Assembly: GCA_031082205.1 (NCBI GenBank)
Contig: JAVHLJ010000012.1
Span: forward strand, 1 to 59,359
From: Elusimicrobiales bacterium
GTDB lineage: Bacteria; Elusimicrobiota; Elusimicrobia; Elusimicrobiales; UBA9959
Length of the DNA: 59,359 bases
Reading direction: 5' to 3'
A program made the position numbers and the translations under genes. Positions 9,680 to 25,672 of the stretch are shown here, piece after piece; positions within the stretch are counted from its first letter, which is position 1, and each line of letters starts with the position of its first letter. The notes under the pieces were generated by a model that saw only the letters and a list, made by a program, of their open reading frames with translations, ran no database searches and had not been told where the DNA came from.

Positions 9680-10504
9680 TTATTGGCGGGGGTTGAGGGC
9701 ACGGTCCAGCAGAAGGTCGAAAAGACGGTCGGGTATCAGGCCCCGGGCGGCGACCAGGAGAGCCGCCTTGAAAGGCACGGCGTAACGCGGCGCGGGGCAG
9801 GATGCTTCGGCGGCTTTAAGTATCGCCTCCGCCACCACCTCCGGGCCGGGGGCGCCGTCGCGGTAGCCGGAGCGGAACTTCTCCGTCATGCGGTCTATCA
9901 TCGGGGCGTAGGGGCCGGCGCCGGAATACTTCTTAAGATTCACCAGGGCGGTATCGTCCCATTCCGTCCTGATCGGGCCCGGCTCGATAAGAACGACCTT
10001 TATGCCGAAGGGCTTCACTTCCAGCCGCAGGGCGTCCGACCAGGCCTCCAGCGCGTGCTTGCTGGCGTGGTACCAGCCGGCGGCGGGCAGCGTCACGCGC
10101 CCGGCTATTGAGGAGATATTTATTATTCTCCCCCCGCGGCGGGCGCGCATGGCCGGCAGGAAAAGTTGCGCAAGACGGGCTGGAGCGAAAACGTTGACCT
10201 CGAACTGGCGCCGGGCCTCTTCTATCGGTATATCCTCTATAGCGCCGTGAGCGCCGTAACCGGCGTTATTGACCAGGATGTCCAGGCCGCCTTCCTTATC
10301 GAATATACGGGCGGCGGCGGCCCGCAGCGAAGCCTCGTCGGCCACGTCGAGCGGGAATATCTCCGCGCCCTTGTCGCGCAGCGGGGCCATCTTCTCGGAA
10401 CGGCGCGCTCCGGCGTAGACCTTATACCCCTTTTTCAGAAAAAGTTCCGCCGCGGCGTAGCCTATGCCCGCCGACGCGCCGGTGACGAATACGGTCTTCT
10501 GCAC
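9680..10504 (-). CDS. Short-chain dehydrogenase/reductase (SDR), substrate unknown
   Basis: 274-residue classical SDR with a Rossmann fold. Nucleotide-binding motif GASAGIGYA at residues ~9-17, structural NNAGYG at ~85, catalytic serine in INISS (~138), and the catalytic YHASK tetrad near 152. The Arg pair in GARRSEK after beta-2 suggests NADP(H) preference (inference). It starts 4 bases after the uridine kinase stop, so it is the last gene of the leftward BMC-linked string before the hrcA promoter. Substrate cannot be named. Confidence 0.85.
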   Translation of the reverse strand: MQKTVFVTGASAGIGYAAAELFLKKGYKVYAGARRSEKMAPLRDKGAEIFPLDVADEASLRAAAARIFDKEGGLDILVNNAGYGAHGAIEDIPIEEARRQFEVNVFAPARLAQLFLPAMRARRGGRIINISSIAGRVTLPAAGWYHASKHALEAWSDALRLEVKPFGIKVVLIEPGPIRTEWDDTALVNLKKYSGAGPYAPMIDRMTEKFRSGYRDGAPGPEVVAEAILKAAEASCPAPRYAVPFKAALLVAARGLIPDRLFDLLLDRALNPRQ

Positions 10505-10507
10505 GGT

Positions 10508-11149
10508 TTACCTGAAGTGATCGCGCAGCATGCGCACCAGGCCCTCGGTGGCCTTGCCCGGTATCTCTTCTCCCTCCCAGTTGATGGAGAAGTGGGCCTC
10601 GCGCTGCGTCGGCTTGACGTATGTCTCGTACATGGGCATGACGGTGGCCAGTATCTGGTGGCGTATGCCCTCTATGTCGCGGCCGCGCTCGCTGATGTCG
10701 CGCTGCACGCGGCGCAGGACGGCGGTGACCATGCCCGTCGAGATGAATATCTTGTAGTCGCACATCGCGGCTATCTTGGGAAAATAGAGCGCGTAAAGCC
10801 CCTCCACTACGATGAGGGGCGTGGACTTGAGCGGCACGCTCTCCTTCTCCCGCGTATGGAGTTTGAAGTCGTAGACCGGCTGCTCTATGGCCTTGCCGGC
10901 GCAGAGCTCGCCCAGCTGCTTGGCCGCCAGCGAGGCGTCTATGGCGTCCGGGTGGTCGAAATTGTAGGTCTTGCGCTCGTCGAAGCTGAGATGCGTGAGG
11001 GGGCGGTAATAATTGTCCAGCGAGAAGAGCTCCCCCTCTATGCCTATCTTGCGGCATTCGGTTATCAGCCTCCTGGCCAGGGTGGTCTTACCCGAACCGG
11101 AGCCGCCGGCTATTCCCAATACGAACCTGCTCTTCCTGGTGTTGTACAT
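10508..11149 (-). CDS. udk: Uridine kinase
   Basis: Phosphorylates uridine and cytidine to the monophosphates in pyrimidine salvage. 213 residues with Walker A GIAGGSGSGKTTLARR at residues ~12-28, the family motif FDHPDAIDASL, and VVEGLYALY with the Walker B glutamate. Start ATG at 11149 follows a GGAG-type site. It lies between the GH84 gene and the SDR gene. Next to a deoxyribose-phosphate aldolase microcompartment it hints at nucleoside salvage, but it is not a known BMC enzyme. Confidence 0.9.
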   Translation of the reverse strand: MYNTRKSRFVLGIAGGSGSGKTTLARRLITECRKIGIEGELFSLDNYYRPLTHLSFDERKTYNFDHPDAIDASLAAKQLGELCAGKAIEQPVYDFKLHTREKESVPLKSTPLIVVEGLYALYFPKIAAMCDYKIFISTGMVTAVLRRVQRDISERGRDIEGIRHQILATVMPMYETYVKPTQREAHFSINWEGEEIPGKATEGLVRMLRDHFR

Positions 11150-11160
11150 GGTGTCTCCTT

Positions 11161-12252
11161 CTACTGGGTGAGGAAAAGGTCCCTGGTCACGGTATATTTG
11201 CCGTCGAGCCAGTCGATCACTTCGCGCGCGGCGGAGGCGGTCTCCCCCTCCTCGGAGGCCAGGAAAGCGGCGTAATCGGTCCGCCGGGTCTTCTTTTCGG
11301 CCTCCGCCATCTCATCGAGACCCCTGTCCATGAAAGCCGGCGTGTCCACGGCCAGCCGTGCGGCCATCTCCGCGCAGGTCACGGTCGCGGCGGCGCCGAG
11401 GAAAGCCTTCTCCGGGTCGTACTCCGGGCCCAGTTCGTAGGAGGCTTTCAGCGTCAGCGCCGATATTTTGGAAAGCGTCACCTGGTTCATCGGGTTGAAG
11501 GCGTGGCCGGCCAGTTGCGCGCCCATATCCGACGGGCGGCCGGTGAAAGGCCGCAGGTGGAGGAATTTGCACATCCGGGGGCCGTCGTTGACGGGGTAAT
11601 TGTCCCAGAGGAACGGCTTGCGGCCGAGCGTGCCCGCCACGGCGCCCAGGTGTTCCGCGGTATAGGACTTGGAGCAGACAAGCTCGCCGGTCCAGAATAC
11701 GCTGACTTTTTTATCCAGACCCCGCCCGAGGGCTTCGAGATAACCCGCCGGCATTTTGCCGAAAAGTTTTTCCAGCACCGGGTCGTACGAATAATAGGTG
11801 GGGCAGAAAACGACCTGCTCCGCGGTCGAGAGGTCCGCGGCCCAGTTGACTATCTCTATCTGCCGTTCGGCCAGGCCGGGCAGGTCGCCTTTCATGTCGT
11901 CCATCAGCAGGCAGAACTTGTCGACGCCCACGCGGTTAAAGAGTTCAATACGGGCCTGCAGCAGCTCCTTATTGGCCGCGTCGAAAGGCGAGAGGTACAT
12001 CTCGTAGGGGCTAAGGCCCACGCCGAACTTCACGCCGGCGGCGCGGCAGGCGCCGGCCAGCTCCGCCAGCTCGCGCTCGCGGGCGGCGGGCATGGGGTCG
12101 CGCCACTTCTTGCGCAGGTAAGGGTCGCCCTTGGGGGCGTAGATGCAGAAGGAGAACCCGTGTTCTTTGAGGAAATTTATGAGGCTCAGGCGCGCGGCGT
12201 GAGTCCAGGGCTCGCCGTAGAAACCTTCGATTATGCCGAGTTCGGTGTTCAC
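11161..12252 (-). CDS. GH84-family beta-N-acetylglucosaminidase-like protein
   Basis: 363 residues. Glycoside hydrolase family 84 enzymes remove beta-linked N-acetylglucosamine by substrate-assisted catalysis. The fold start ELGIIEGFYGEPW, the paired catalytic aspartates in LLMDDMKGD (D118, D119) and the WDNYPVND motif are all present. There is no signal peptide, so it is predicted cytoplasmic, unlike many secreted bacterial members. It starts with GTG, overlapping the stop codon of the 81-residue BMC gene (GTGA), so translation is coupled to the microcompartment operon. A cytoplasmic role in GlcNAc recycling or glycopeptide trimming is inference. Confidence 0.85.
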   Translation of the reverse strand: MNTELGIIEGFYGEPWTHAARLSLINFLKEHGFSFCIYAPKGDPYLRKKWRDPMPAARERELAELAGACRAAGVKFGVGLSPYEMYLSPFDAANKELLQARIELFNRVGVDKFCLLMDDMKGDLPGLAERQIEIVNWAADLSTAEQVVFCPTYYSYDPVLEKLFGKMPAGYLEALGRGLDKKVSVFWTGELVCSKSYTAEHLGAVAGTLGRKPFLWDNYPVNDGPRMCKFLHLRPFTGRPSDMGAQLAGHAFNPMNQVTLSKISALTLKASYELGPEYDPEKAFLGAAATVTCAEMAARLAVDTPAFMDRGLDEMAEAEKKTRRTDYAAFLASEEGETASAAREVIDWLDGKYTVTRDLFLTQ

Positions 12253-12494
12253 TCGCGGACGATCTCCACCCCGTTGTAATCGAGCCAGTCCAGGGAGAGC
12301 GGGCTGACTATCGCGTTGCGGGGCACGACGAGCCGCTTCCCGCCGGGCTTCATCATGCGCCGTATCTCCCAGTCGCTGAGGAAGACCTTTTTCGCCGGCG
12401 GAGCTTTCTTCGCCGGCCGCGCGGGCGCCTCTTCCGCGCTGCCGCGGAAGAGGCGCTCGTACAGCGCGTCGGCTATGTCGCCCCGTGTCAGCAT
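12249..12494 (-). CDS. Small BMC-linked protein with encapsulation-peptide-like N-terminus
   Basis: 81 residues, family not recognised. Residues 1-17 (TRGDIADALYERLFRG) form an amphipathic helix of the kind that targets cargo into microcompartments. A Pro/Ala/Lys linker (~18-36) follows. The last ~45 residues contain LVVPRNAIVSPLSLDWLDYNG, faintly like the N-terminal part of EutT- or EutQ-type BMC proteins. It lies 24 bases downstream of a BMC-H gene, and its stop overlaps the GH84 start. Likely a lumen protein or adaptor (inference). Confidence 0.65.
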   Translation of the reverse strand: MLTRGDIADALYERLFRGSAEEAPARPAKKAPPAKKVFLSDWEIRRMMKPGGKRLVVPRNAIVSPLSLDWLDYNGVEIVRE

Positions 12495-12518: not shown

Positions 12519-12812
12519 TCAGGCCTTTACGGAGATCTTGGCCAGGTACTTGTCCAGGTCGTCGGCGGGCCGCGGTATCACGTGCACGGCGACCAGCTCG
12601 CCGACCTTCTGGGCGGCGGCCGAGCCGGCCTCGACGGCGGCGCGCACCGCGCCGACCTCGCCCACGCAGAGCGTGGTCACGTAGCCGGAGCCTATCTTCT
12701 CGTAGCCCAGCAGGCGCACCTTGGCGGCCTTGGCCATGGCGTCGGAGGCCTCTATCATGCCGATAAAGCCCTTCGTCTCTATCATTCCCAGCGCTTCTTT
12801 AGGTTCAGACAT
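12519..12812 (-). CDS. BMC-H hexameric shell protein
   Basis: 97-residue single BMC-domain protein of the PduA/EutM/CcmK type, which forms hexagonal tiles of the shell facets. The family start [20 protein letters not shown] and the pore loop KIGSG are clear, followed by [14 protein letters not shown] and VHVIPRP. The pore sequence is the same as in the second BMC-H at 17296-17580. The two copies differ most at their C-terminal tails. It lies just downstream of deoC. Confidence 0.95.
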
Positions 12813-12835: not shown

Positions 12836-13831
12836 TCAGTACTGCCCTTTGGCGGCCTCGCCGCCGGAAACTATCGCGATGCTGGCGCTCGTGCCCAGGC
12901 GGGTGGCGCCGGCCTTGACCATGGCCGCGGCGACCTCGGCGTTCTTGATGCCGCCCGAGGCCTTCACGCCCATCTCGGGGCCGACGGTCTGGCGCATCAG
13001 CGCGACGTCCTCCACGGTGGCCCCGCCGGAGCCGAAACCCGTCGAGGTCTTGACGAAGTCGGCCTGGGCCTGCTTCGACATCCTGCAGGCGCGGACCTTC
13101 TCGTCGTTGGTGAGGTAGGAGGTCTCGAGTATGACCTTCAGGCACTTGCCGCGGGTGGCCTCGCGCACGGCCTTTATGTCGTCGAGGACCAGCGCGTCGT
13201 TGCCGGACTTGAGCGCGCCGATGTTTATGACCATGTCGATCTCGTCGGCGCCGTTGGCTATGGCGTCGCGGGCCTCTATGGCCTTGATCGTAGGGGTGGT
13301 GGACCCGAGAGGGAATCCGATGACGGTGCAGACCATGACCCCGCTGCCGCGCAGCAGCCGGGAGGCCATGGCGACATAGGCCGGGTTCACGCAGACGCTG
13401 GCGAACCTGTACTTGCGGGCCTCCTCGCAGAGCTTGCCGATCTCCTCCTGCGTGGCGTTGGCCTTGAGCAGGGTGTGGTCTATCATGCCGGCGATGGAGG
13501 AGCTGCCGGCTCCCGGGTTGCAGAAGCTGACGCGCTCGACGCCCATGCCCTTCACCTGCTGGGCGGTGAAATTGTTAAGCGGATTGCAGCTCTGGCAGGT
13601 CCCGGAACAGGTGTTCTCCTCGAGCCGGCAGTCCGGGTTGCGCTTCGGCGCGGGAGACTGCCCGGCGGGCTGCCCTCCTACGAGCGGGCCGGAGAAAACC
13701 TTGCCGGCGCTGCCCATGGTGACGCGGCCCTCCGGCGGCAGGCTCTTCTGGCCTTTGGGAGCGGCGTCCTCTTTGGCCCGCATTATCCTGGCCACTTCCT
13801 CGGCTATCTTCTTTATGTCCTCTTCACGCAT
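12836..13831 (-). CDS. deoC: Deoxyribose-phosphate aldolase with encapsulation peptide and Cys motif
   Basis: Class I aldolase splitting 2-deoxyribose-5-phosphate into acetaldehyde and glyceraldehyde-3-phosphate. 331 residues, about 80-100 longer than typical DeoC. Residues 1-20 ([19 protein letters not shown]) are an amphipathic encapsulation-type helix. A disordered linker and a CX6CX3CX2C motif (C68, C75, C79, C82) follow. The catalytic domain starts near 112 ([12 protein letters not shown]), with D199 in [10 protein letters not shown] and Schiff-base lysine K261 in [18 protein letters not shown] follows. It is the likely signature enzyme of the microcompartment. Its start overlaps the upstream BMC-P gene by 8 bases. 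Confidence 0.93.
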
Positions 13832-14123
13832 ATTTCTTTACCCCTTTTTCGCAGCTGACCTGGTCCACTATGCCGCAGATGACGGTGCGGACCGGCGCTT
13901 TCGGGTTCCTGAGTATCTTCCTGGCCCCGCCGCCCTCGTCCATGACGAGCACGACGTCGCCCGGGCCCGCTCCGACGCCGCCGTCGAGCGCCAGGGTGGC
14001 GTCGCCGGTGAAGTCCCCGGAGCAGGCCGAATCCACGGGACGTACCAGCAGCAGCGTGGAGCCTTCCAGCCCCTTGTGCTTGCGGGTCGCCCAGACATTC
14101 CCCACGACTTTTCCTACGAACAT
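13824..14123 (-). CDS. BMC-P pentameric shell vertex protein (EutN/CcmL family)
   Basis: 99 residues. Pentamers of this family cap the vertices of the polyhedral shell. Start [21 protein letters not shown] is typical, followed by LLLVRPVD and the turn [21 protein letters not shown]. It is one of three paralogues here, 4 bases from the next BMC-P gene and overlapping deoC. Its tail carries two cysteines. Confidence 0.94.
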
Positions 14124-14127
14124 AAAT

Positions 14128-14424
14128 TCAGATGAGCTTCTTGCCGTCTATGATGCCGACTATGGCCGCGTCCACCGGCGGCGGGCTGGACCTGGCGGCG
14201 GTCTCGCCTTCCCAGCCTTCGAAGGCCACTATGGCCTCGCGCGAGGCGACGAAGAAGACGGTCTCGCCGGCGCCGGCCCCGACGGTGTCGGCGGCCACCA
14301 GCGGGTCTCCGGACGGGGCGTCGGTGACCCAGTCGAGCGGCTGCACCAGCAGCAGCGTCTTCTGCGCCATGCCGCAGCATTGCTGCGCGCAGAACACCCT
14401 TCCGATGACCTTGGCCTGTTTCAT
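14128..14424 (-). CDS. BMC-P pentameric shell vertex protein, second copy
   Basis: 98 residues, EutN/CcmL family. Motifs AKVIGRVFCAQQCCGM, LLLVQPLDW and GAGAGETVFFVASREA match the family. An unusual CAQQCC cluster replaces the basic loop seen in the other two paralogues. It lies between rpiB (7-base gap) and the first BMC-P. Vertex protein, possibly forming mixed or alternative pentamers (inference). Confidence 0.93.
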   Translation of the reverse strand: MKQAKVIGRVFCAQQCCGMAQKTLLLVQPLDWVTDAPSGDPLVAADTVGAGAGETVFFVASREAIVAFEGWEGETAARSSPPPVDAAIVGIIDGKKLI

Positions 14425-14431
14425 CTAAAGC

Positions 14432-14878
14432 CTAGCAGCACCTTTGCTCTATCGCCGTGATCTTGTCCAGCCGCTTCTGATACTTCCCCCCCTCGAAAGG
14501 GGTGGAGAGCCAGACGCGCACCATCTCCTGAAGCGCCAGCTCGCCATGCGTCTTGCCGCCCAGGCACAGGACATTGCAGTCCTCGTGCGCCGCGGCGAAG
14601 CGGGCCGAGATGACGTCGTAGGCGCCCACGGCCCTTATGCCGTGTATCTTGTTGGCGGCCAGCGGCATGGCGCCGTTGAAGCCGTCCACCAGGACGCCCT
14701 TCTCGAACTCGTGCTTGCGCACGGCGTCGCCGACGAGCATGGCTATATCGGGAAAATCGACGGCCTCGGTGGAGTAGCAGCCGAAATCGGTCACCTCGTG
14801 GCCGAGGGTCTGGAGATACTTCTTCAACTTCTCCTTGGCTTCGAAGCCCGCGTGGTCCGCGCCTATGACTATCTTCAT
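14432..14878 (-). CDS. RpiB/LacAB-family sugar-phosphate isomerase with altered active site
   Basis: 148 residues from ATG 14878, chosen over an upstream ATG at 14902 because GGAGG precedes it and the family start KIVIGADHAGFEAKE follows at once. RpiB interconverts ribose-5-phosphate and ribulose-5-phosphate. Asp8-His9, the AANKIHGIRAV segment and the tail EGGKYQKRLDKITAIEQR are conserved. The catalytic loop is not: E. coli Cys66 and its GTGVGIS loop align with Asp65 and GFNGAMP, and Asn100 aligns with Glu. So it may have another substrate or mechanism. It sits among shell genes, as in SPU-type BMC loci, and has no encapsulation peptide. Confidence 0.85.
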   Translation of the reverse strand: MKIVIGADHAGFEAKEKLKKYLQTLGHEVTDFGCYSTEAVDFPDIAMLVGDAVRKHEFEKGVLVDGFNGAMPLAANKIHGIRAVGAYDVISARFAAAHEDCNVLCLGGKTHGELALQEMVRVWLSTPFEGGKYQKRLDKITAIEQRCC

Positions 14879-14921: not shown

Positions 14922-15470
14922 TTATATTGCCGCGCCGAGATGCTCGTGCGCGTTCGGGATAACGATGCGGGTTATGACCGCGTCCTCGCCTATGGCCTTC
15001 ACGCCGGCGGCCACGGCCGTGCGCACCGCGCCGACCTCGCCGCAGACCGTGAAGTAGCCCTTGCCGCCTATGCCCTTGCCCGTGTTCACTTCGGCCACGT
15101 GGACGAAGGCGGCCTTGGCGGCCGCGTCGGCGGCGAACAGGGCCGGCAGGGCCTCTTTGGTCTCCACCATGCCTACGGCCTCGAGCGAGGCGGGCTTCAC
15201 TTTCTTGTTGAGGGCGGCCAGCGCGCCGGCGTGGACATTGCGGACGATGTGGCGGACGATGAGGGTATTACCGGCTATCTCGGCGCCCCTGGCCAGCGAG
15301 GATTCCACCTCGCCGACGGGGCCGGCTATGACGATTATGTATTTGCCCTTTGAAATGGCCTGGTGGACCCTGGGCTCCACGCCGGCCGCCTTGCACATGG
15401 CGTCCAGCGCCTCTATGCCCCTGGCTATCGAGGAAGTCTCCATCATGCCTATCGAGATGTTCGCCTGCAT
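14922..15470 (-). CDS. BMC-T tandem-domain trimeric shell protein
   Basis: 182 residues with two BMC domains (about 1-88 and 94-182). It forms pseudohexameric trimers in the shell. First domain: ISIGMMETSSIARGIEALDAM with pore loop SKGKY, where the PduT-type cysteine is replaced by Ser40. Second domain: AVGMVETKEALPALFAADAA with GIGGKG. AAGGAG lies upstream of the ATG at 15470. It sits 10 bases after the aldehyde dehydrogenase gene. Probably a metabolite pore rather than an Fe-S carrier (inference from the missing cysteine). Confidence 0.93.
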   Translation of the reverse strand: MQANISIGMMETSSIARGIEALDAMCKAAGVEPRVHQAISKGKYIIVIAGPVGEVESSLARGAEIAGNTLIVRHIVRNVHAGALAALNKKVKPASLEAVGMVETKEALPALFAADAAAKAAFVHVAEVNTGKGIGGKGYFTVCGEVGAVRTAVAAGVKAIGEDAVITRIVIPNAHEHLGAAI

Positions 15471-15480: not shown

Positions 15481-16908
15481 TTAAGCTATCCTGAGGTCGC
15501 CGACCACGCTGCACTGCAGCGGGCGGACGAAATGGCTGGTCTTGGTGATGCCGTCGCCGGTCGGGGTGCCGATGGACATCGAGGCGTAGCCCTCGCCCAG
15601 GCCCAGGCCGTGCAGCGTGCAGCCGTTCTTGACGAAGATGGAGCAGGCCATGCGCCTGCCCATTTTGGTCATGTTCTTGACGTTGGTGGAATACATGCCC
15701 GCGCTGTGATGGTTGTTGCCCTCGGCGCGCCGGGCCAGCTCTATCGCGGCGTCCACGTCCCGCGCGACCGTCACCGGCAGCACCGGCATCAGCTGCTCGG
15801 CGTGGACCAGCGGGTGGTCGTTGGGCACCTCGGCCCAGAGAACGCGCACCTCGTCGGACAGGCTGAGGCCGATGGACTTGGCTATCACGGAGGGATTCCT
15901 GCCGATGAAGTCGCGGTTGATCCTGGGCTCGGGGCCGGGCTCAAGGATGATGAGCCTGGTAAGCTGGTCCATCTGCGCGCCGGTCAGCTCGTAGGCGCGG
16001 TGGTCCTTGCGCATAGCTTCCAGGAAGCGGGCCCGGGCGGCCTCGGTCACTATGACCTCCTTCTCGGCTATGCAGAGCACGTTGTTGTCGAAGCCGCAGC
16101 CGGTGATTATCTCCTCGGCGCAGTCCGGGAAAACGGCGGTCTCGTCGACCACCACCGGCGGGTTGCCGGGGCCGGCGGCGATGGTCTTGCAGGCCTTGCC
16201 GGCCGTCATGGCGACCTTCACTATGGCGGGGCCGCCGGTCACCAGGTTCATGTGCGTGTCCGGGTGGGAGAGGAGCTGCTTGGTGGCCTCCTGCGTCGGC
16301 TTGGCGATGGTGGAGACCAGGTTATGGGGGCCGCCGGCGGCGACTATCGCGGAATCGATCGCGCGCACGGCGTCGGCCACGCAGCCCTTGGCGGCCGGGT
16401 GCGGCGAGAAGACGGCGGCGTTGCCGGCCGAGAGTATGCCGATCGCGTTGCTGATGATGGTGGCGACGGGATTGGTCGAAGGCGTTATGGCGGCGACCAC
16501 GCCGAAAGGCGCGTACTCGACGAGGGCCAGGCCCTTGTCGCCGGTATAGGCTACGGCGCGCAGGTCCTCGACGCCGGGGGTCTTGTCGGCGCAGACCAGG
16601 TTCTTTAGCACCTTGTCGGCGACGCGGCCCATGCCGGTCTCGGCGACGGCCAGCTCGGCCCAGCGGCGGGCGTTGGCGCGCGAAACTTCGCGTATGGCGG
16701 AAATTATCTTCTCGCGGGCCTCGAGGCCCATGTCCTGGAAGCCGGGCTGGGCGCGGCCCGCGGCGGCCACGGCCTGGTCCACGGTGTCGAACACCGGTCC
16801 GGCGGAGCCTGAGGAGGCGGACGGGGCGGCCGGCGCCGCGCCGGAGGCCTCGAGGTTCTTCACCACCTCGGCGACTATCTTCCTTAGCTCTTCCTCGTTT
16901 ATGGACAT
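15481..16908 (-). CDS. CoA-acylating aldehyde dehydrogenase (PduP/EutE type) with encapsulation peptide
   Basis: 475 residues. It should oxidise acetaldehyde with CoA and NAD+ to acetyl-CoA inside the microcompartment. Residues 1-20 (INEEELRKIVAEVVKNLE) form an amphipathic targeting helix, followed by an Ala/Pro/Ser linker to ~38. Catalytic Cys279 lies in FDNNVLCIAEKEVIV. ITPSTNPVATIISNA and AAGPGNPPVVVDE are family motifs. In this locus it would take the acetaldehyde made by DeoC and hand acetyl-CoA to PduL. It lies between BMC-P (10-base gap) and BMC-T. Confidence 0.95.
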   Translation of the reverse strand: MSINEEELRKIVAEVVKNLEASGAAPAAPSASSGSAGPVFDTVDQAVAAAGRAQPGFQDMGLEAREKIISAIREVSRANARRWAELAVAETGMGRVADKVLKNLVCADKTPGVEDLRAVAYTGDKGLALVEYAPFGVVAAITPSTNPVATIISNAIGILSAGNAAVFSPHPAAKGCVADAVRAIDSAIVAAGGPHNLVSTIAKPTQEATKQLLSHPDTHMNLVTGGPAIVKVAMTAGKACKTIAAGPGNPPVVVDETAVFPDCAEEIITGCGFDNNVLCIAEKEVIVTEAARARFLEAMRKDHRAYELTGAQMDQLTRLIILEPGPEPRINRDFIGRNPSVIAKSIGLSLSDEVRVLWAEVPNDHPLVHAEQLMPVLPVTVARDVDAAIELARRAEGNNHHSAGMYSTNVKNMTKMGRRMACSIFVKNGCTLHGLGLGEGYASMSIGTPTGDGITKTSHFVRPLQCSVVGDLRIA

Positions 16909-16918: not shown

Positions 16919-17224
16919 TCACTGCATCTTGTTCACGGATTTTTTGAAGACGACCTTGCCCTCTTTCTCGATGGTGTCCACTATGGCGAAGATGGTGCAG
17001 TCGACCGGCGTGCTCTCGGTCTTGGAGGTCTGGCGGGCCGAGGAGCCCTGCACGAGCAGGACCAGTTCGCCCAGTCCGGCGCCGACGGCGTCGACACCGA
17101 CAAGGGGGTTCCCCTTGGGTTTGTCGTCCAGGCCTACGGGCTGGACCATGAGGAGCTTGGTGCCCACGAGCTTGTCGTCCTTGCGGGTGCAGACCACGTT
17201 GCCTACCACTCTGGCGAATAACAT
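16919..17224 (-). CDS. BMC-P pentameric shell vertex protein, third copy
   Basis: 101 residues, EutN/CcmL family, with the start LFARVVGNVVCTRKDDKL, LLMVQPVGLDDKPKG and GAGLGELVLLVQGSSAR. It is slightly longer than the other two and ends in a basic tail (VVFKKSVNKMQ). It lies between BMC-H and the aldehyde dehydrogenase, away from the other two copies. Confidence 0.94.
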   Translation of the reverse strand: MLFARVVGNVVCTRKDDKLVGTKLLMVQPVGLDDKPKGNPLVGVDAVGAGLGELVLLVQGSSARQTSKTESTPVDCTIFAIVDTIEKEGKVVFKKSVNKMQ

Positions 17225-17295: not shown

Positions 17296-17580
17296 TTACT
17301 TCTTCTTGTTGTCGGTTATCGGGAGCTTGCCTTCGAGGTCGCCGTGCGGCTGCGGTATCACGTGCACGCTGACCAGTTCGCCGACCTTCTGGGCGGCGGC
17401 GGCGCCGGAGTCGCAGGCGGCGCGGCAGGCGGCGACTTCGCCCCTGAAAAGGATGGTGACCAGGCCGGAGCCGATCTTCTCGTAGGATACCAGCTTGACG
17501 TTGGCGGCCTTGACGGCGGCGTCGGCCGCTTCAACGCAGGCGATGAGGCCCTTGGTCTCTATCATTCCGAGTGCTTCCAT
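17296..17580 (-). CDS. BMC-H hexameric shell protein, second copy
   Basis: 94 residues, one BMC domain: [21 protein letters not shown], pore loop [19 protein letters not shown] and [13 protein letters not shown]. It is the first gene of the shell/enzyme cluster 17580 to 9680. An AGGAGG ribosome site lies 8 bases upstream of the ATG, and an AT-rich island lies before it. It has three cysteines, unlike the copy at 12519. Confidence 0.95.
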
Positions 17581-17686: not shown

Positions 17687-18781
17687 TCAGGAGGCCTTTC
17701 CGCTTTCCACCGCGGCGGCCAGCCGGCGCCATATGGCCTCTATATCGTATTCGCGCCGGGCCTTTTCCAGGGCGGCCCTGCCCAGGCGCTCGTAAAGGGC
17801 GGGGTCGGAAAGGAGCCGCCGCGTCTTCTCCGCCAGGTCCGCCGCGTCCTTCGTGGTAAAGAGAAGCCCCGTGGTCCCGTCGTCGATTATATCCGGCACG
17901 CCGCCCGCGTTGGACGCGACGACCGGGACGCCGGACGCCATGGCCTCCGGGATGCAGCGGCCGAAGGTTTCCTTCCAGGACGGCATCCAGACCACGGCCA
18001 GCTCCCGCAGGCGCTTCGAGAGGTCGTCGAAAAAGCCGTCATAGACGACCGAATCCTCCACCCCGAGCTCGCGCGCCAGCCTGTCGAGGACCGGGCGCAT
18101 CGGCGTCTCGCCGGGGGTATTGGCGCCGATGAAATGCAGGGTCACCGGGCGCGGGAGGTCTTTTTTAAGCATCGCCAGCGCGCGGATGGCCAGGTCCTGT
18201 CCCTTCTGGGGGTCCAGCCGCGCCACGATCCCTATCTGCAGCGGGCCCGCGTCGGGCGCGGGCAGGGAGAAGGACTCCCTCGGGGAGAAGCGCGCCAGGT
18301 CCACGCCGTTGGGGATTATCGCGACCTTGCCGGGATCGACGGGAGAAGTGTCCAGCAGGTTCTCCCTCTGGGCGGGAGTGAGGACGATCCAGAGATCGGC
18401 GCGGGAAAAGATGAAGCGGTGAAAGGGGTCTTTTTTCCGGACGCCGTAGAAAGTGTGGTTGAGAACGGTCACTTTCCCCGAAGGCTTATAGAAGAGGAGG
18501 CTTTTGAGGTCCTGGTGGCGGTGTATCAGGAAGGCGGCGCCGCCGCGGTCAAGGGCCTTCATCTCCATGGCCGCGCTCCTGTAGCGCAGGAAGGACCTGC
18601 CGACGGAGACGGTGGTGCCGCGGTAGCCGCGCTCGAGAAGCTTCTTCTCCAGGGGAGTGCCGGCGGCGACTATTATCCTCGCGGGAAAGCCGTTGCGCAG
18701 CAGCCACTCGTGGAACTCGAGGGCTATGAGCTCCAGGCCGCCGTATCCTATCGCGAGAGTTACTTGCACTGTTTCTTTCAT
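17687..18781 (-). CDS. Glycosyltransferase, GT4 family
   Basis: 364 residues with the GT-B fold. It transfers a sugar from a nucleotide-sugar donor to an unknown acceptor, probably LPS or another surface glycan. The C-terminal domain carries GIVARLDPQKGQDLAIRAL and the EX7E motif in ETFGRCIPEAMASGVPVVAS. PNGVDLARF joins the two domains. No membrane segment. It is the third in a run of three glycosyltransferases between pduL and the BMC-H gene. The run looks like an LPS core module inserted in the BMC region (inference). Confidence 0.88.
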   Translation of the reverse strand: MKETVQVTLAIGYGGLELIALEFHEWLLRNGFPARIIVAAGTPLEKKLLERGYRGTTVSVGRSFLRYRSAAMEMKALDRGGAAFLIHRHQDLKSLLFYKPSGKVTVLNHTFYGVRKKDPFHRFIFSRADLWIVLTPAQRENLLDTSPVDPGKVAIIPNGVDLARFSPRESFSLPAPDAGPLQIGIVARLDPQKGQDLAIRALAMLKKDLPRPVTLHFIGANTPGETPMRPVLDRLARELGVEDSVVYDGFFDDLSKRLRELAVVWMPSWKETFGRCIPEAMASGVPVVASNAGGVPDIIDDGTTGLLFTTKDAADLAEKTRRLLSDPALYERLGRAALEKARREYDIEAIWRRLAAAVESGKAS

Positions 18782-18833
18782 TTTAAATTCCGTTAAAAGC
18801 CCGCCGGGGCGGGCGGGATACCGTCCAACGGGC

Positions 18834-19868
18834 TCAGCCGAAGATCGCGGCCGTCGACTTCACGAAAGCCGCGCGCGAGAATTCCGACGCGGCGCGCTCG
18901 CGGGCCGCGCGGCCCAGCCTCTCGGCGCGCAGCGGGTCCGCGGCGAGCCCGGCTATCCTGCCGCCCAGCGCGGCGTGGTCGGCGGGCGGCACCAGCAGGT
19001 CCGGCTCCGCGAACTCAGGCAGGCTGCCCACCGCGGTGGCGACCAGCGGCCGGCCCGCGGCCATCCATTCGAGCGCCGCCCGCGAGACGGCCTCGCTGCC
19101 GAGCGAGGCGGATACTCCGGCGTGGCAGGAGCGCATGAAGGACAGCGTGTCCGGCAGCCGGCCGTGGAATACGACTTTTCCCGCTATGCCGAGCCGCGAC
19201 GCCAGCTTTTCCAGGTCCGCTCGTTTGACGTTGCAGTCCTCCCCGGCGATATGGAACTCGAGGTCGGGGCCGCTTTTGAGCGCCAGCGCCGCGGCGCGCA
19301 GGAAGCATTCATGTCCCTTCACGGGATCAAGGCGTCCCAGCAGCCCGACGCGGAAAGGGACGGGCGGCGGAGGCGGCTCGTAAGGCGGGGTTTCTATGGA
19401 CTGAGGGATTAGCGCGGAAAGCGACGGCTCCAGCCCGGCCGCGAGGTACATCCGCTCGATATGCGCGGAGGCCGAGATCACCCTGTGGACCCCCGAGAAA
19501 GTGAAGCCTATGGCCGGAGTCTTGGCGTCCGCCTTGACCCTGACAAGCTTCAGCCCCGGCGTGAAAAGGCGGAACAGCCAGCCGACCGTCTGGGCCAGGC
19601 CTGTATGCGCCAGCACGGCCCCTACGCCCTCCCGGCGCGCGAAGAAGAAGAGGCGGCCGAAGCCGGCCGGGAAACGGCCGAAATGCTTGTGGTCCGGCAC
19701 GGCCACATGGCGGAAATTATTGGCGGCGGCGAACTTGTCCGCGGCGCTGCCGGCGGGCGAGCCGATCACAACCTCGTGTCCGGCCTCGCGCAGCGCCAGG
19801 GCCTGGTCGAAAGCGTAGGCGGCCAGGCCGCTGTTCCAGGGGATGATGACCAGGCTGAGTATCTTCAC
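18834..19868 (-). CDS. Glycosyltransferase, GT4 family
   Basis: 344 residues, GT-B fold. N-terminal Rossmann-like half with NSGLAAYAFDQALALREAGHEV, C-terminal half with VGLLGRLDPVKGHECFLRA and the motif SEAVSRAALEWMAAGRPLVA. Its start overlaps the upstream GT9 gene by four bases, so the two are translationally coupled. Acceptor unknown; envelope polysaccharide or LPS is likely given the GT9 partner. Confidence 0.85.
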   Translation of the reverse strand: MKILSLVIIPWNSGLAAYAFDQALALREAGHEVVIGSPAGSAADKFAAANNFRHVAVPDHKHFGRFPAGFGRLFFFARREGVGAVLAHTGLAQTVGWLFRLFTPGLKLVRVKADAKTPAIGFTFSGVHRVISASAHIERMYLAAGLEPSLSALIPQSIETPPYEPPPPPVPFRVGLLGRLDPVKGHECFLRAAALALKSGPDLEFHIAGEDCNVKRADLEKLASRLGIAGKVVFHGRLPDTLSFMRSCHAGVSASLGSEAVSRAALEWMAAGRPLVATAVGSLPEFAEPDLLVPPADHAALGGRIAGLAADPLRAERLGRAARERAASEFSRAAFVKSTAAIFG

Positions 19869-20920
19869 GCGGCTTTCTCCGGTCTCGCGGGACGGCCGAG
19901 TTTTTCGAGAATTGAGGAGGCCCCTTCGTAAGCCGCGTCGGGAGTTATCTCAGCCATGCAATTATAGCGTTCGCATTTTTCGCGGGAGCAGCCGGCGCAT
20001 TCGGGGCCGGAAGGCACGAGGACCTTGTTCATCCCCCCGCCGTAGGGGCCCCAGCGGCGCGGCGAGCAGACCTTTATCGGCGGGAAGAAGGAAAGCGTAG
20101 GGACCCCCTGCGCGACGGCCAGGTGCAGCGGGCCCGTGCTGTTGGTGACGAACATCGAGCAGCGCCCTACGAGAGCGATGAAATGGCGCAGCGGCAGCGG
20201 CTCGCGCAGGACGGCCGGCTTCTCCGGCATCGAGGCGGCCAGTTCCTCCAGCAGCGGCACTTCGGCGCCGGAGCCGGTGAGCAGCACTTTCACCCCGTGC
20301 CCGCGCATGAGCCGCGAGGCCAGCGCCGCGAAGTTCTCCGGCGGCCAGTTCATCGCCGAGCCGCGGCTGCCGGGATGCACCCCGACGATGAAGTCGCCGG
20401 GCTTGAGGCCGGCCCGCTCCAGCGCGCGGTCGGCCGCGTCCTTCTCGTCGGGGGTTACGGTCACCGATGTCCGGGCGGGCCCGACGGGCAGGCCGAGGCC
20501 GGCCAGCAGGTCGAGATTGTAATCGGCCTCGTGCTTCTCTATGCGCGAGCGGCGTTGTGTTATCCGGCGGTTGAGGAAAAGCGACCAGACCTTGGAGGCC
20601 GGACCGACGCGCAGCGGTATGCCGGCCAGCAGCGGCAGAAGGGCGGAGCGGAAGTCCACGAAGAAGACGACAGCCGCGTCGTAATTCTCCCGGCGCAGCT
20701 CCCGCAGCGTATCGAAGAATCCGCCCAGCGTCACTATCTTCTCCAGCGCCGGGTTTTTTTCCAGGACGGGGCGCGCGTAGCCCCCGGCCAGGAAATGCAG
20801 CCTCGCGCCGGGCAGCGCCGCCTTGAGCGCGGCCGCCGCGGGCGTTGTAAGCGTCACGTCGCCTATGCGGTCGGTACGCACCAGCAGTATCTTGGGGTTA
20901 TCTCGCATCGAAGTCCGCAA
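19865..20920 (-). CDS. GT9-family heptosyltransferase-like glycosyltransferase
   Basis: 351 residues. The family adds heptose (or a related sugar) to the LPS inner core. N-terminal motif KILLVRTDRIGDVTLTTPA, and the donor-binding region VGVHPGSRGSAMNWPPENFA then FVTNSTGPLHLAVAQGVPTL are typical. A cysteine-rich patch near the end (CAGCSREKCERYNC) is common in this family. It starts 5 bases after the pduL stop, so it is very probably co-transcribed with pduL. Confidence 0.88.
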   Translation of the reverse strand: MRTSMRDNPKILLVRTDRIGDVTLTTPAAAALKAALPGARLHFLAGGYARPVLEKNPALEKIVTLGGFFDTLRELRRENYDAAVVFFVDFRSALLPLLAGIPLRVGPASKVWSLFLNRRITQRRSRIEKHEADYNLDLLAGLGLPVGPARTSVTVTPDEKDAADRALERAGLKPGDFIVGVHPGSRGSAMNWPPENFAALASRLMRGHGVKVLLTGSGAEVPLLEELAASMPEKPAVLREPLPLRHFIALVGRCSMFVTNSTGPLHLAVAQGVPTLSFFPPIKVCSPRRWGPYGGGMNKVLVPSGPECAGCSREKCERYNCMAEITPDAAYEGASSILEKLGRPARPEKAA

Positions 20921-20925: not shown

Positions 20926-21564
20926 TCAGACGATGTAGGCGGGGTCGTTGTTGCGCAGGCCGGCGGCGTTGGCCTCTTCAGTGTCGAGGTGCAGTTCCAG
21001 CGCGTATTTATCGGAAACCCGGCAGAGGACGCCCTCGTAGACGGCGGCGCGGTCGCCGCGGCCGCAGCGCACGCGGACCTCCATGCCGTCCTTTATCTTC
21101 ATCTTTTCCGCGTCCTTGGGATGGAAATGGATGTGGCGCTTGGAAAGTATGACGCCGCGGTCAACGGTCACCGAGCCCTTGGGCCCGATAAGTTTCACGC
21201 CGGGGGAATTGTCCAGCTTGCCCGAATCGCGTATGGGCGGGTCTATGCCCAGCGTCCTGGCGTCGGCCAGCGAGACCTCTATCTGGGTGTAGGGCCGGTA
21301 AGGACCGATGAGCCGCACGTTCTTCAGCGATCCTTTGGGCCCCTCGACGGTGATGAGTTCGTCGCAGGCGTAGAAGCCGGGCTGGCGCAGCTGGCGGAAC
21401 TGGCAGGGCTCGGCGTCGGGGCCGAAGAGGGCCTTGAAGTGCTCTTTGGTGATGTGGAAATGGCGGTTGGAAACGCCGACGGGCACCGGCATGGAGCTGC
21501 GCTCCTGCCTGAGCTTGAGGTCCTCTATGATTTCCCTTACCAGTTTCTCGTCCATAATCTGCAC
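20926..21564 (-). CDS. pduL: Phosphate propanoyl/acetyltransferase PduL
   Basis: BMC phosphotransacylase that converts acyl-CoA plus phosphate to acyl phosphate and regenerates CoA inside the shell. 212 residues with two zinc-binding PduL domains: VGVSNRHFHITKEHF near residue 29 and ILSKRHIHFHPKDAEKM near residue 138. The N-terminal helix MDEKLVREIIEDLKLRQE resembles an encapsulation peptide. Here it would make acetyl phosphate from acetyl-CoA. No acetate kinase gene is in the window. A ~170-base gap with an inverted repeat separates it from tpiA. Confidence 0.94.
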   Translation of the reverse strand: MQIMDEKLVREIIEDLKLRQERSSMPVPVGVSNRHFHITKEHFKALFGPDAEPCQFRQLRQPGFYACDELITVEGPKGSLKNVRLIGPYRPYTQIEVSLADARTLGIDPPIRDSGKLDNSPGVKLIGPKGSVTVDRGVILSKRHIHFHPKDAEKMKIKDGMEVRVRCGRGDRAAVYEGVLCRVSDKYALELHLDTEEANAAGLRNNDPAYIV

Positions 21565-21734: not shown

Positions 21735-22511
21735 TTATTTCGCCAGCACGGGCTGGAAATGTATCACGCGCAGGAACTTGTCGGCCTTGAGGCTCTCGCC
21801 TCCGACCAGCGCCCCGTCTATGTCGGGCTGCGCCATCAGCTCGTCGACATTGTCGGCCTTCACCGAACCGCCGTAAAGTATCCTGACCGCGGCGGCGAAG
21901 TCCTTGCCGTAGAGCCGCTCCATCTGCTTGCGCACGAAAGTGTGGGCGTCCTGCGCCTGCCCGGGCGTGGCCGTCTTGCCGGTGCCGATGGCCCAGACGG
22001 GCTCGTAGGCTATGACGACCCTGGCGGCGTCGGCGGCCGGTACGCCGGCGTAGGCGCCGGTCAGCTGGGTCTCGAGCACGCGGTATGTCTTCTGCGACTC
22101 GCGCTCCTCGAGCGTCTCGCCGATGCAGAGCACGGGCAGCAGGCCGGCCTTGAGGGCGGCCTTGACCTTCCTGTTTATCACCTCGTCGGTCTCGAGGAAG
22201 ATCTTGCGGCGCTCGCTGTGGCCGATTATCGCGTGGGAGCAGCCCGCGTCGAGCAGCTGCGAGGGAGCGACCGCGCCGGTGAAGGCGCCTTTCTCCTCCC
22301 AGCAGACGTCCTGGGACGAGAGAAATATCTTAGAACCGGCCAGCGCCTGCTTAACGGCGTGCAGGCCGGTGAAAGACGGGGCCAGCAGCACGTCGTGCTT
22401 CAGGTCCGGGTCGAGGCCCTTGTTTATGGCGGCGGCCAGGTCGGCGGCCTCCTTCGCTGTCATGTGCATCTTCCAGTTGCCGGCGATAAGGGGTCTGCGG
22501 TTCGGGTTCAT
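21735..22511 (-). CDS. tpiA: Triosephosphate isomerase
   Basis: 258-residue TIM-barrel enzyme interconverting glyceraldehyde-3-phosphate and dihydroxyacetone phosphate. Motifs AGNWKMHMT (Asn/Lys), catalytic His in IIGHSERRKIF, catalytic Glu in YEPVWAIGTGKTATPGQA and the phosphate loop YGGSVKADN are intact. It lies between the PduT-like gene and pduL, with no encapsulation peptide. So it would act on the triose phosphate from DeoC after it leaves the shell (inference). Confidence 0.96.
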   Translation of the reverse strand: MNPNRRPLIAGNWKMHMTAKEAADLAAAINKGLDPDLKHDVLLAPSFTGLHAVKQALAGSKIFLSSQDVCWEEKGAFTGAVAPSQLLDAGCSHAIIGHSERRKIFLETDEVINRKVKAALKAGLLPVLCIGETLEERESQKTYRVLETQLTGAYAGVPAADAARVVIAYEPVWAIGTGKTATPGQAQDAHTFVRKQMERLYGKDFAAAVRILYGGSVKADNVDELMAQPDIDGALVGGESLKADKFLRVIHFQPVLAK

Positions 22512-22528: not shown

Positions 22529-23086
22529 TCAGATCAGCTCGTTCAAAAGTTCCTTGCGCGGCTGCGGTATCACGACTTTTTCAACCAGGAGGCCGCGGCG
22601 GGCCACCACGGCGGCGCCCGCCCCTACGGCGGTCTCGGCCGCGGCCACGCTGCCGGTCAGCGTCACGAAGGCCTTGCCGCCCAGCGCCATGGCCAGGCGT
22701 ATCTCGATGAGGCGCACGTCGGCGGCCTTTACCGCGGCGTCGGCGGCTTCTATGAGCGCCGAGACCGAGAAGGCCTCTATCACTCCCAGCGACTCCAGGT
22801 CGCCGGCCGGGCCCGTGCCCTCTATGGCGGGGAAGACCTGCGGGTGTATGTTTGGGATGACGAACTGGTCGACCAGCGCATGCGCGGCCTTCGCGGAGCC
22901 CGCCTCGACGGCGGCGTTGACCGCGCCGACCTCGCCGGAGACCAGTATCACGTACTTGCCGGGGCATACGGAGCGCGAGACCAGCATCCGCGCGTCGGCC
23001 GTCTTGAGCATCGCGTCGGCCGTCTCCAGCCCCTTCGCTATGCTTGAAAGTTCCACTCCCCCGATGGCATTGAGGTTATTGGCCAT
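22529..23086 (-). CDS. pduT: PduT-like BMC-T shell protein with Fe-S pore cysteine
   Basis: 185 residues, two BMC domains. The first has GGVELSSIAKGLETADAML and the pore loop SVCPGKY. Cys41 aligns with Cys38 of PduT, whose three copies hold a 4Fe-4S cluster at the trimer axis. The second has SLGVIEAFSVSALIEAADAA. It lies 1 base after the PduS-like gene, and PduS and PduT interact in the Pdu system. Expected role: pass electrons across the shell. It is separated from the main shell cluster by five genes. Confidence 0.93.
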   Translation of the reverse strand: MANNLNAIGGVELSSIAKGLETADAMLKTADARMLVSRSVCPGKYVILVSGEVGAVNAAVEAGSAKAAHALVDQFVIPNIHPQVFPAIEGTGPAGDLESLGVIEAFSVSALIEAADAAVKAADVRLIEIRLAMALGGKAFVTLTGSVAAAETAVGAGAAVVARRGLLVEKVVIPQPRKELLNELI

Positions 23087-23087
23087 G

Positions 23088-24434
23088 TCAGTCCGCCTTG
23101 ATCTCGACGTAAATATGGTTCGCCTTCGTCACTACGCCGTCCACGCTGGCGTGCACGGGGCAGCCCAGCTTGTCGGCCGGCAGGTCTCCCACGACCTCGC
23201 CCCGCCGGACGCGCTGCCCCTCTTTGACGGACGGCGAGCAGGGGGCGCCGATATGCTGGGACATCTGTATGCGCACCGAGCCGGGCCGGTACTTGAAATC
23301 CTCGTAGGGGGCGTCTTTCAGGTAATCCCCGAGCCCCAGCCGTTTGACCAGCCGCGAGACCGGGACCTTGCGGAAATCGCGCAGCGGGTGGGCCTGGTTG
23401 GACGAGCGGCCGGCCAGAGAGGAATTCTTGAGCCCGGTCTTCAGCTCCCGCAGGTCGCCCTTGGCCGCCACGCAGGCCTCGCGCGGGTGCAGATTCTCGG
23501 GGCAGGCGTAGAGACTGCAGAGCGAGCATTCGCAGCAGGCCAGCGCGTACTCGCTGTGCAGCTTCTTCTCCGGGCCCCCGGAGAAGAGCAGGCTGCGCAT
23601 TACGCGGTGCGGCTGCACCTGGTGGCCCAGCAGGTAGCGCGGGCAGAACTCGGTGCAGAACGAACACTGGTCGCAGGCGGACTTCCCTATGCGCGAAAAG
23701 ACGGCCCTGGACTGCGCCTTTTTCTGTATCAGCGGATGGTCCTTGGGAAGCACGATCAGCCCGCCGGAGGTCCTGTTGATGATCGTGGAAAAATCGGGAA
23801 CGACCTTGCCCATCATCGGTCCGCCGTCTATGCCGGCGGGGTCCTTCACGGTCGCGCCGCCGCAGAGTCCGACGGCCTCGTCGTAGGTCACGCCTATCGG
23901 GACCTTGAAGGTGGCCGGTTTCCTGACGGCTCCGGCCACGGTTATCCATTTCTCCGTCACGGGAGTTTCGCCGGCGCGGGCCGCGTTGTAAAGTGTCTCG
24001 ACGTTGCTGACCACGCAGCCGACGTCGAGCGGGATGCCGCCGGCCGGCACTATCCTGCCGGTCAGTTCCGCGACCAGGCACTGCTCGTCGCCGGCCGGGT
24101 AATAGTCCCCCATCGGGCCGACCGAGATATCGCGGCGCGTCCGGGCTATCTCCTCCAGGCGCTTTATGACCTTCTCGTGCTTCTTCTTGATGCCGAACAC
24201 GCCGGAGGAGGCGCCGACGGCCCTCATCATCATTTCCAGCCCGTCGAAAACCTTTTCCGCGTGGAGCTCCAGCAGCTTCTGGTCCTTCTTGAGCAGCGGC
24301 TCGCATTCCGCGGCGTTGACCAGCACGAATTCGGCGCGCCCACCCGCCTTGACGTAGGCGGGAAAGCCGGCGCCGCCGGCCCCTACCACTCCGGCGGCGC
24401 GCAACCTGGCGGCGAATTCCTGCTGGAAGGACAT
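23088..24434 (-). CDS. pduS: PduS-like Fe-S flavoprotein (RnfC-related)
   Basis: 448 residues from ATG 24434; the longer upstream frame runs into the aminotransferase gene, which ends at 24443. RnfC-like nucleotide/FMN domain GVVGAGGAGFPAYVK at residues 16-29, an SLBB-like domain, and two 4Fe-4S motifs: C254-C257-C260-C264 and C301-C303-C306-C311. The C-terminal barrel-like region (GEVVGDLPADKLGCPVHAS) is present. PduS reduces cob(III)alamin in Pdu systems. No B12 enzyme is seen here, so it may instead oxidise NADH and pass electrons to the PduT-like shell protein. Confidence 0.92.
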   Translation of the reverse strand: MSFQQEFAARLRAAGVVGAGGAGFPAYVKAGGRAEFVLVNAAECEPLLKKDQKLLELHAEKVFDGLEMMMRAVGASSGVFGIKKKHEKVIKRLEEIARTRRDISVGPMGDYYPAGDEQCLVAELTGRIVPAGGIPLDVGCVVSNVETLYNAARAGETPVTEKWITVAGAVRKPATFKVPIGVTYDEAVGLCGGATVKDPAGIDGGPMMGKVVPDFSTIINRTSGGLIVLPKDHPLIQKKAQSRAVFSRIGKSACDQCSFCTEFCPRYLLGHQVQPHRVMRSLLFSGGPEKKLHSEYALACCECSLCSLYACPENLHPREACVAAKGDLRELKTGLKNSSLAGRSSNQAHPLRDFRKVPVSRLVKRLGLGDYLKDAPYEDFKYRPGSVRIQMSQHIGAPCSPSVKEGQRVRRGEVVGDLPADKLGCPVHASVDGVVTKANHIYVEIKAD

Positions 24435-24442: not shown

Positions 24443-25672
24443 TTATTTGGAGCCCACGAGGCGCTTCTTGACGGCGGCGGCGAGGCGCTTGATGCCCTCG
24501 TCGATCTGCCCGGGCGAGGCGAAGGAGAAGTTCAGCCGCATCGTGTTCTTGCCCGAACCGTCCGAATGGAAGGCCGAGCCTATCACGTAGGCCACGTTCT
24601 CCCTGAGCGCGTCCTGGAACATGTCGTCGGCGCTCATCTGCTCCGGCAGGCGTACCCACAGGAAGAGGCCGCCCTCCGGGTTGGTCCAGGTGACGCCCTC
24701 GGGCATATATTTTTCAAGCGCCCCGATCATGGTGTTCTTCTTGAGCCGGTAGTCCTTCTTGATGACCTCGATGTGTTTCTCGAAGAAGCCGGTGCGCAGG
24801 AACTCGGCGGCGATGAGCTGGTTGAGGCTGGAAGTGCAGAGGTCCAGCGACTGCTTGAGTATCTCCAGTTTCTTTATGATCTGCTCGTGGGCCAGTATTA
24901 TGCCCAGGCGCAGCCCCGGGGCGAAGGTCTTGGACAGGGTGAACAGCGAGATGACATTGTCGGTCCTGCGGGTCTCCTTGTCCAGCCGGTAGAGCATCTT
25001 GGGCTCCTTGCCCTCGAAGCGGATCTGCCGGTACGGGGAATCCTCTATGACCGCCACGTTGTACCTGTCGGACAGCTCTATGACCTTCTCGCGCTTGGCC
25101 TCCGAAAGAGTGACCCCGCTGGGATTCTGGAAGTCCGGCACCAGGTAGACGAACTTGTAATGCTCGTCCTGGGCTTTGAGCCAGGCCAGCTTCTCCTCCA
25201 GTTCGTCCACCGCGATGCCGTCGTCCTCCAGCTTGACGCCGATGAATTCCGCGCCGTAGGACTTGAAGACCTGCAGGGCGCCCATGTAGCTGGGCTTCTC
25301 CACTATGACCGGGTCGGAGGCGTCGATGAAGAGGCGGCCGACCATGTCCAGTGCCTGCTGGCTGGCTGTCGTGATTATGAGGTTCTCCGGCTTCGCGTCG
25401 ACGCCCTCGTACTTCTTGAGGAACTTGACGAACTCCTCCTTGAGCTCGGGAAGGCCGTCGGTGGGCCCGTACTGCAGGGCTACTTTGCCTTTCTTGGACA
25501 TTATCTCCCGGACGGTGTCGGCCACGAAATCGTAGGGGAAGTGGTCGGGCGCGGGAAGCCCCCCGGCGAAAGATATGATACCGGGCTGGTTGGTGGTCTT
25601 GAGCAGTTCGCGTATAACGGACGCTTTGGTGCGGCGGGGTGCGGTTGCGATGTTCTTTGCAATGTCTATCAT
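24443..25672 (-). CDS. Class I/II PLP-dependent aminotransferase
   Basis: 409 residues, fold type I. N-terminal motif GIISFAGGLPAPDHFP, the YGPTDGLPELKEEF segment, the aspartate region in FVYLVPDFQNPSGVTL, the PLP lysine in SLFTLSKTFAPGLRLG and the Arg in MRLNFSFA. It most resembles the 2-aminoadipate/multi-substrate aminotransferase branch. It begins the transcript that continues through pduS, pduT, tpiA and pduL, with its own promoter and a GGAGG site. Its relation to the BMC may be only positional. Confidence 0.88.
   Translation of the reverse strand: MIDIAKNIATAPRRTKASVIRELLKTTNQPGIISFAGGLPAPDHFPYDFVADTVREIMSKKGKVALQYGPTDGLPELKEEFVKFLKKYEGVDAKPENLIITTASQQALDMVGRLFIDASDPVIVEKPSYMGALQVFKSYGAEFIGVKLEDDGIAVDELEEKLAWLKAQDEHYKFVYLVPDFQNPSGVTLSEAKREKVIELSDRYNVAVIEDSPYRQIRFEGKEPKMLYRLDKETRRTDNVISLFTLSKTFAPGLRLGIILAHEQIIKKLEILKQSLDLCTSSLNQLIAAEFLRTGFFEKHIEVIKKDYRLKKNTMIGALEKYMPEGVTWTNPEGGLFLWVRLPEQMSADDMFQDALRENVAYVIGSAFHSDGSGKNTMRLNFSFASPGQIDEGIKRLAAAVKKRLVGSK

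Follow-up and report, generated by a model that had tools for sequence, protein, structure and literature searches.

The window analysed here is a 59,359-nucleotide stretch of DNA that makes up one whole contig (C3) of an Elusimicrobiales genome of 2.75 Mb in 98 contigs, scored 100% complete. A microcompartment (BMC) operon runs along its minus strand from 24434 down to 12249, in the order PduS, PduT, triosephosphate isomerase (TIM), PduL, three glycosyltransferase-like genes, BMC-H, BMC-P, acylating aldehyde dehydrogenase, a second BMC-T, RpiB, two further BMC-P, DeoC, BMC-H and an 81-aa protein. By a genome-wide family search, this operon is the sole locus with BMC-domain genes in the genome. 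Its features, and the gene upstream, are as follows.

24443-25672, minus strand: aminotransferase, 8 bp upstream of pduS and beside the operon across the family
23088-24434, minus strand: PduS-like flavo-Fe-S protein (448 aa), a predicted NADH dehydrogenase and soluble relative of RnfC
22529-23086, minus strand: PduT-like tandem-domain BMC-T shell protein (185 aa) with pore Cys41
21735-22511, minus strand: TIM (PF00121, E 6e-93), without a targeting peptide by comparison of N-termini
20926-21564, minus strand: PduL phosphotransacylase (PF06130, and NF011652 above cut-off)
17296-17580, minus strand: BMC-H shell hexamer (PF00936)
16919-17224, minus strand: BMC-P shell pentamer, family from sequence; the reference for annotating relatives at the same operon position
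15481-16908, minus strand: acylating aldehyde dehydrogenase (NF011927, 566 bits, above cut-off) with an N-terminal EP-like helix (MSINEEELRKIVAEVVKNL), the presumed NADH source
14922-15470, minus strand: second BMC-T trimer, without the pore Cys (Ser in AISKGKY)
14432-14878, minus strand: RpiB-type sugar-phosphate isomerase (PF02502 and NF004051)
14128-14424, minus strand: BMC-P shell pentamer, family from sequence, operon position conserved in relatives
13824-14123, minus strand: BMC-P shell pentamer, family from sequence, operon position conserved in relatives
12836-13831, minus strand: DeoC deoxyribose-phosphate aldolase (TIGR00126, 296 bits, above cut-off) with an N-terminal EP-like helix and a Cys-rich linker
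12519-12812, minus strand: BMC-H shell hexamer (PF00936)
12249-12494, minus strand: conserved 81-aa operon-end protein with weak C-terminal similarity to TIGR02536

Judged by gene content, the operon is that of a sugar-phosphate-utilization (SPU) microcompartment, since it encodes both the DeoC-type (PF01791) and the RpiB-type (PF02502) enzymes that are common to all seven SPU subtypes (Sutter 2021, PMC8217296). An acylating aldehyde dehydrogenase and PduL accompany them, and BMC-H and BMC-T shell genes lie in the same locus (PF00936 matches); sequence and operon position, rather than an HMM scan, identified the three BMC-P genes. The compartment probably serves the breakdown of deoxyribose phosphate from DNA.

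Several features of the surroundings vary between relatives. The three glycosyltransferase-like genes (17687-20920) interrupt the operon in the window and in genome G115, and not in the sister genome G087. The aminotransferase is found at the other operon end, in the opposite orientation, in genome L057. The 81-aa protein has an EP-like N-terminus and recurs at the end of SPU operons in the phylum. Beyond the operon (9680-12252) are a short-chain dehydrogenase, a uridine kinase and a gene resembling NAGase by sequence, of which the NAGase-like gene is retained next to the operon in several members of the family and the short-chain dehydrogenase in three relatives.

The pduS and pduT genes are 1 bp apart. 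PduS starts at MSFQQEF; a GTG start at 24659 would give a longer frame, which runs into the upstream aminotransferase gene. The protein carries the four Pfam domains by which PduS has been defined (PMC6325248), all above cut-off: Complex1_51K, SLBB, Fer4_17 and, at the C-terminus, RnfC_N. It is 41% identical to Salmonella PduS over 415 aa, and a 92% PduS match comes from a relative, an Elusimicrobia bacterium assembled from a metagenome. Two 4Fe-4S motifs, C254-x2-C257-x2-C260-x3-C264 and C300-C301-E-C303-x2-C306-x4-C311, are invariant in a 17-sequence alignment, and the eight Fe-S ligand cysteines are invariant in 41/41 homologues (a comparison in which the residue numbering runs +75). Residues of the FMN/NADH site are conserved (GAGGAGFP, NAAECEP). 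An AlphaFold2 model (pLDDT 88, pTM 0.89) has as its top structural match the NADH-bound RnfC of Acetobacterium Rnf (9eri_C; E 2e-22, TM 0.64), with the RnfC_N barrel shifted to the C-terminus. The TIGR01945 match falls below cut-off, and genome-wide PduS alone has an RnfC_N match above cut-off. PduS is predicted to oxidise NADH.

PduT comprises two BMC domains in tandem, and the closest solved structures are 3nwg and PduT 3n79. Its best match is TIGR02526 at 124.7 bits, below the curated cut-off of 250.3 bits, and we therefore call the protein PduT-like; identity to Salmonella PduT is 41%. In alignment, Cys41 (VCPGKY) matches the pore cysteine (CPGK) of Salmonella PduT; it sits in the pore motif C-P/S/A-G-K/R/S-Y/F, a putative 4Fe-4S cluster site. 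This cysteine is present in 41/41 PduT homologues of the phylum and in 73/73 PduT of named genomes, a set that partly overlaps the 41, and it is absent from the second BMC-T in all 26 loci compared, where the column holds S, A or P. The earlier note had described this pair as a PduS with two 4Fe-4S motifs and a nucleotide site next to a BMC-T with the PduT pore cysteine in CPGKY, and both descriptions, with their coordinates, are borne out.

That note had also seen neither a B12 enzyme nor an alcohol dehydrogenase at the locus, and genome-wide searches agree: none of the B12 enzymes or Fe- or Zn-alcohol dehydrogenases sought lies within the window, and the locus has no PduQ-type alcohol dehydrogenase. 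The whole genome contains no PduC (PF02286; the same search was positive in two control genomes), no EutB and no glycyl radical enzyme (PF02901). Three Fe- or Zn-alcohol dehydrogenases (one Fe, two Zn) are encoded, none with an encapsulation peptide or BMC neighbours. The Fe enzyme is YqhD-like (243 bits against NF011717, under its cut-off of 645), is located on another contig adjoining a CoA-ligase-type gene and lacks a targeting peptide. Both Zn enzymes resemble threonine 3-dehydrogenase: one scores above the NCBIfam cut-off, and the other, below it, adjoins a gene whose sequence resembles glycine C-acetyltransferase. No Fe- or Zn-alcohol dehydrogenase of the genome looks BMC-targeted, targeting being judged solely by an N-terminal EP-like helix, which would miss piggy-backed entry (as for PduQ). 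As a candidate for a hidden alcohol dehydrogenase, the short-chain dehydrogenase (9680-10504) is not favoured, because it has no targeting peptide and is positioned 1.7 kb past the operon.

Several B12-binding proteins of the genome resemble radical-SAM B12 proteins in their N-terminal sequence and one is lysine 5,6-aminomutase beta. Their presence lends something to the idea that PduS is a relic, or a cobalamin reducer for a B12 enzyme elsewhere, but they are remote and none is in a BMC context, PduC and EutB are missing, and the residues of PduS are conserved rather than decaying. In a wider survey of the best 80 PduS loci in GTDB species genomes (a few of them Elusimicrobia, the selection being biased to this query), a B12 dehydratase or lyase is nearby in just four. 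We consider this explanation very improbable, and the cobalamin reactivation that the earlier note ascribed to PduS in Pdu loci is accordingly a special case. An internal reductase is harder still to credit. For Atribacteria SPU loci, where cobalamin is not needed and the alcohol dehydrogenase is the only missing core enzyme, Axen 2014 (PMC4207490) suggested that PduS might produce an alcohol or be a remnant; applied here, PduS would reduce aldehyde to alcohol in place of the missing enzyme. Its RnfC fold has no recognised aldehyde-reducing domain, however, and an invariant PduT partner with its pore cysteine would be left unexplained.

The phylum was surveyed in 295 genomes. PduS orthologues (E <= 1e-90, or a fragment at a contig end) are present in 67 of them, PduT orthologues in exactly these 67, and no genome has just one of the two. 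The genes are adjacent on one strand in 65/67; in the other two, each gene has its own contig and lies at or close to an end. In one layout, that of this window, the pair heads an SPU operon that has a second trimer. In 20 genomes outside the window's family, the pair stands alone on another contig and the SPU operon with its second trimer is elsewhere, a separation that rests on contigs, with the neighbouring genes read for many of the 20. A third layout is ALDH-PduS-PduT-RpiB, in which PduT is the only trimer detected and occupies the BMC-T slot adjoining the NADH-producing enzyme. Finally, 27 genomes have the second trimer and neither PduS nor PduT. As raw genome counts without phylogenetic correction, the second trimer is present in 20/20 stand-alone-pair genomes and in 27/228 genomes negative for the pair (Fisher p 7e-17, with related genomes counted as independent). 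Distances of PduS and PduT correlate (r = 0.92), but the correlation of PduS with ALDH is equally strong, and we therefore rejected it as specific evidence for the pair and read it as co-inheritance only. The inseparability of the two genes and the invariant pore cysteine support PduS and PduT as a predicted single redox unit.

Ten of the 27 loci with the second trimer alone were read; all have the SPU enzyme set and none has PduS or an alcohol dehydrogenase, and no alternative NADH sink was found in the SPU operons without the pair that were read. A related BMC thus manages without the electron route or an operon-encoded alcohol dehydrogenase, and the pair is not obligatory for SPU compartments. 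The assertion that NADH from the aldehyde dehydrogenase must be reoxidised is consequently too strong if reoxidation by a compartment enzyme is meant. These loci suit an account in which NADH and NAD+ are recycled by nucleotides or reduced products crossing the shell, PduS and PduT being an optional add-on (for redox tuning or a second substrate) and no dedicated lumenal NADH oxidase being needed; the gated trimers of some BMCs may indeed pass large cofactors (PMC8217296). Against this, the pair is never split where it is present and its redox residues are invariant, and we regard the account as unlikely.

The same comparison brought out variation in other genes. In the window's family, the EP-like helix of DeoC is joined to the aldolase domain by a conserved Cys-rich linker (C-x6-C-x3-C-x2-C, with SFC ~24 residues further), which from comparison across relatives is a possible Fe-S or Zn site. 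Where PduT is the only trimer detected, DeoC has C..CxxCxxC, with a weak flavoprotein-like N-terminal domain in the one checked, and in some loci lacking the pair it has CPHC...C or no Cys motif. A small zinc-ribbon-like multi-Cys protein adjoins DeoC in SPU operons lacking in-operon PduS/PduT (L082:7578-7901, L087:10563-10877, L095:9730-10032). In related lineages, and not in the window's family, a PilT/T2SSE-like ATPase follows the SPU operon together with large uncharacterised proteins (L084:8690-9754, L095:10613-11695, L082:8555-9643).

Our best reading, which we hold at a probability of roughly 0.65, is that PduS and PduT would form the electron outlet of the SPU microcompartment. Provided that the operon is expressed and the cluster sites are occupied, DeoC would be the physiological source of the aldehyde, the encapsulated aldehyde dehydrogenase would convert acetaldehyde and NAD+ to acetyl-CoA, and PduL would make acetyl phosphate. 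PduS, docked against the lumenal side of the PduT trimer, would take a hydride from NADH on its FMN, and single electrons would pass via its two 4Fe-4S clusters to a pore 4Fe-4S cluster held by the three Cys41 of the PduT trimer. From the pore they would leave for a cytosolic acceptor, with NAD+ regenerated inside. The resemblance of the modelled PduS fold to NADH-bound RnfC favours such an outlet, as does the lack of a BMC-type alcohol dehydrogenase, PduC, EutB and a glycyl radical enzyme in the genome, and the published potentials run outward (NADH -320 mV, PduS FMN -150 mV, PduT cluster +99 mV; PMC6325248), so that the route from NADH to PduT would be downhill. The SPU loci without the pair are the main evidence against the outlet as a necessity. 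No acceptor is encoded alongside the pair, and a literature search found no biochemical data on any SPU PduS or PduT.

Electrons might instead flow the other way, entering the lumen through PduT and PduS and reducing a cargo centre there, as has been proposed for the activating enzymes of glycyl radical BMCs; PMC6325248 discusses an encapsulated activating enzyme reduced through PduS, and the conserved Cys-rich linker of DeoC could bind a metal centre. This genome, however, has no glycyl radical enzyme, the chemistry of DeoC, RpiB, ALDH and PduL has no known reduction step, and the potentials favour NADH to PduT, which makes inward flow improbable.

Electron export through PduS and PduT, the alternative put forward in the earlier note, therefore gains support from the inseparable pair and the invariant pore cysteine, but the pair is not necessary and the idea is not new, having been proposed for other BMCs between 2014 and 2021. 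Shuttling by PduS and PduT was proposed for GRM1 (PMC4207490), and export was developed in PMC6325248 and PMC8667426, the latter for a BMC likewise lacking an alcohol dehydrogenase. A PduT-like shell protein in Listeria has been linked, as a hypothesis, to extracellular electron transfer (PMC8547011), and the main text of PMC8217296 discusses satellite loci and not PduS. The present analysis adds the genome-wide negative test and the pattern seen across genomes.

Beyond the phylum, PduT is present in 73 of the best 80 PduS loci, and 28/43 of the loci of at least 15 kb are without a further BMC gene recognised by the references used. Stand-alone pairs from other phyla (Acidobacteriota, Ignavibacteria/Chlorobi, Planctomycetes, Marinimicrobia, Latescibacteria and others) were followed up in 25 genomes, and all 25 carry shell pentamers elsewhere, with three matches each, a raw count uncorrected for how common BMCs are in these phyla. 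The main BMC loci fetched for these genomes are of several kinds: a few have DeoC or RpiB, some have ALDH, PduL or acetate kinase, and in many only shell genes were recognised. Beside the stand-alone pairs we found no conserved third gene that could be a candidate acceptor or have another function, only scattered positions or small lineage-specific groups. In three Ignavibacteria/Chlorobi genomes, acetate kinase is in the fetched locus of a stand-alone PduS-PduT pair (L121, L123, L137). A broader and more tentative proposal, to which we give slightly less than an even chance, is that PduS-PduT is a portable, cargo-independent two-gene electron port for BMCs, carried in the operon, in place of an ordinary trimer or as a satellite across many phyla, by which NADH electrons leave through the shell without alcohol formation while unrelated enzymes work inside.

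If microcompartments are wired in this way, the rule that NAD+ is recycled by internal alcohol formation would fail for a large share of metabolosomes, and a conductive shell protein would become usable in engineering. For natural comparison, the Elusimicrobia set contains SPU operons whose pair is internal or a satellite, others in which PduT is the only trimer, and others that lack the pair.

Among known systems, the locus shares with SPU BMC loci (PMC4207490, PMC8217296) DeoC, RpiB, the acylating aldehyde dehydrogenase, PduL, TIM and BMC-H, BMC-T and BMC-P, and with those of Atribacteria a PduS without a B12 enzyme or alcohol dehydrogenase; it differs in its Elusimicrobia lineage, its two trimers (one PduT-like, one Cys-less) and the three inserted glycosyltransferase-like genes. 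With the PDU loci of Salmonella and Citrobacter it has in common the adjacent pduS-pduT, the domains, 41% identity and the pore cysteine. It lacks, however, the B12 diol dehydratase PduCDE, PduO and a PduQ-type alcohol dehydrogenase in the locus, and a BMC role in B12 reduction is excluded. The glycyl radical BMCs (GRM1/3/5 and the Bilophila isethionate BMC; PMC6325248, PMC8667426) are likewise B12-independent and have PduS-PduT, and the Bilophila cluster also has no alcohol dehydrogenase and is the subject of the same electron-export hypothesis in the literature; here, in contrast, the signature enzyme is DeoC, and a glycyl radical enzyme in need of activation is absent. RnfC of the Rnf NADH:ferredoxin oxidoreductase, the best fold match, likewise combines an NADH/FMN module with two 4Fe-4S clusters, whereas the RnfC_N barrel of PduS is C-terminal rather than N-terminal and its gene stands outside any rnf operon, with no rnf genes adjacent and no Rnf membrane partners nearby.
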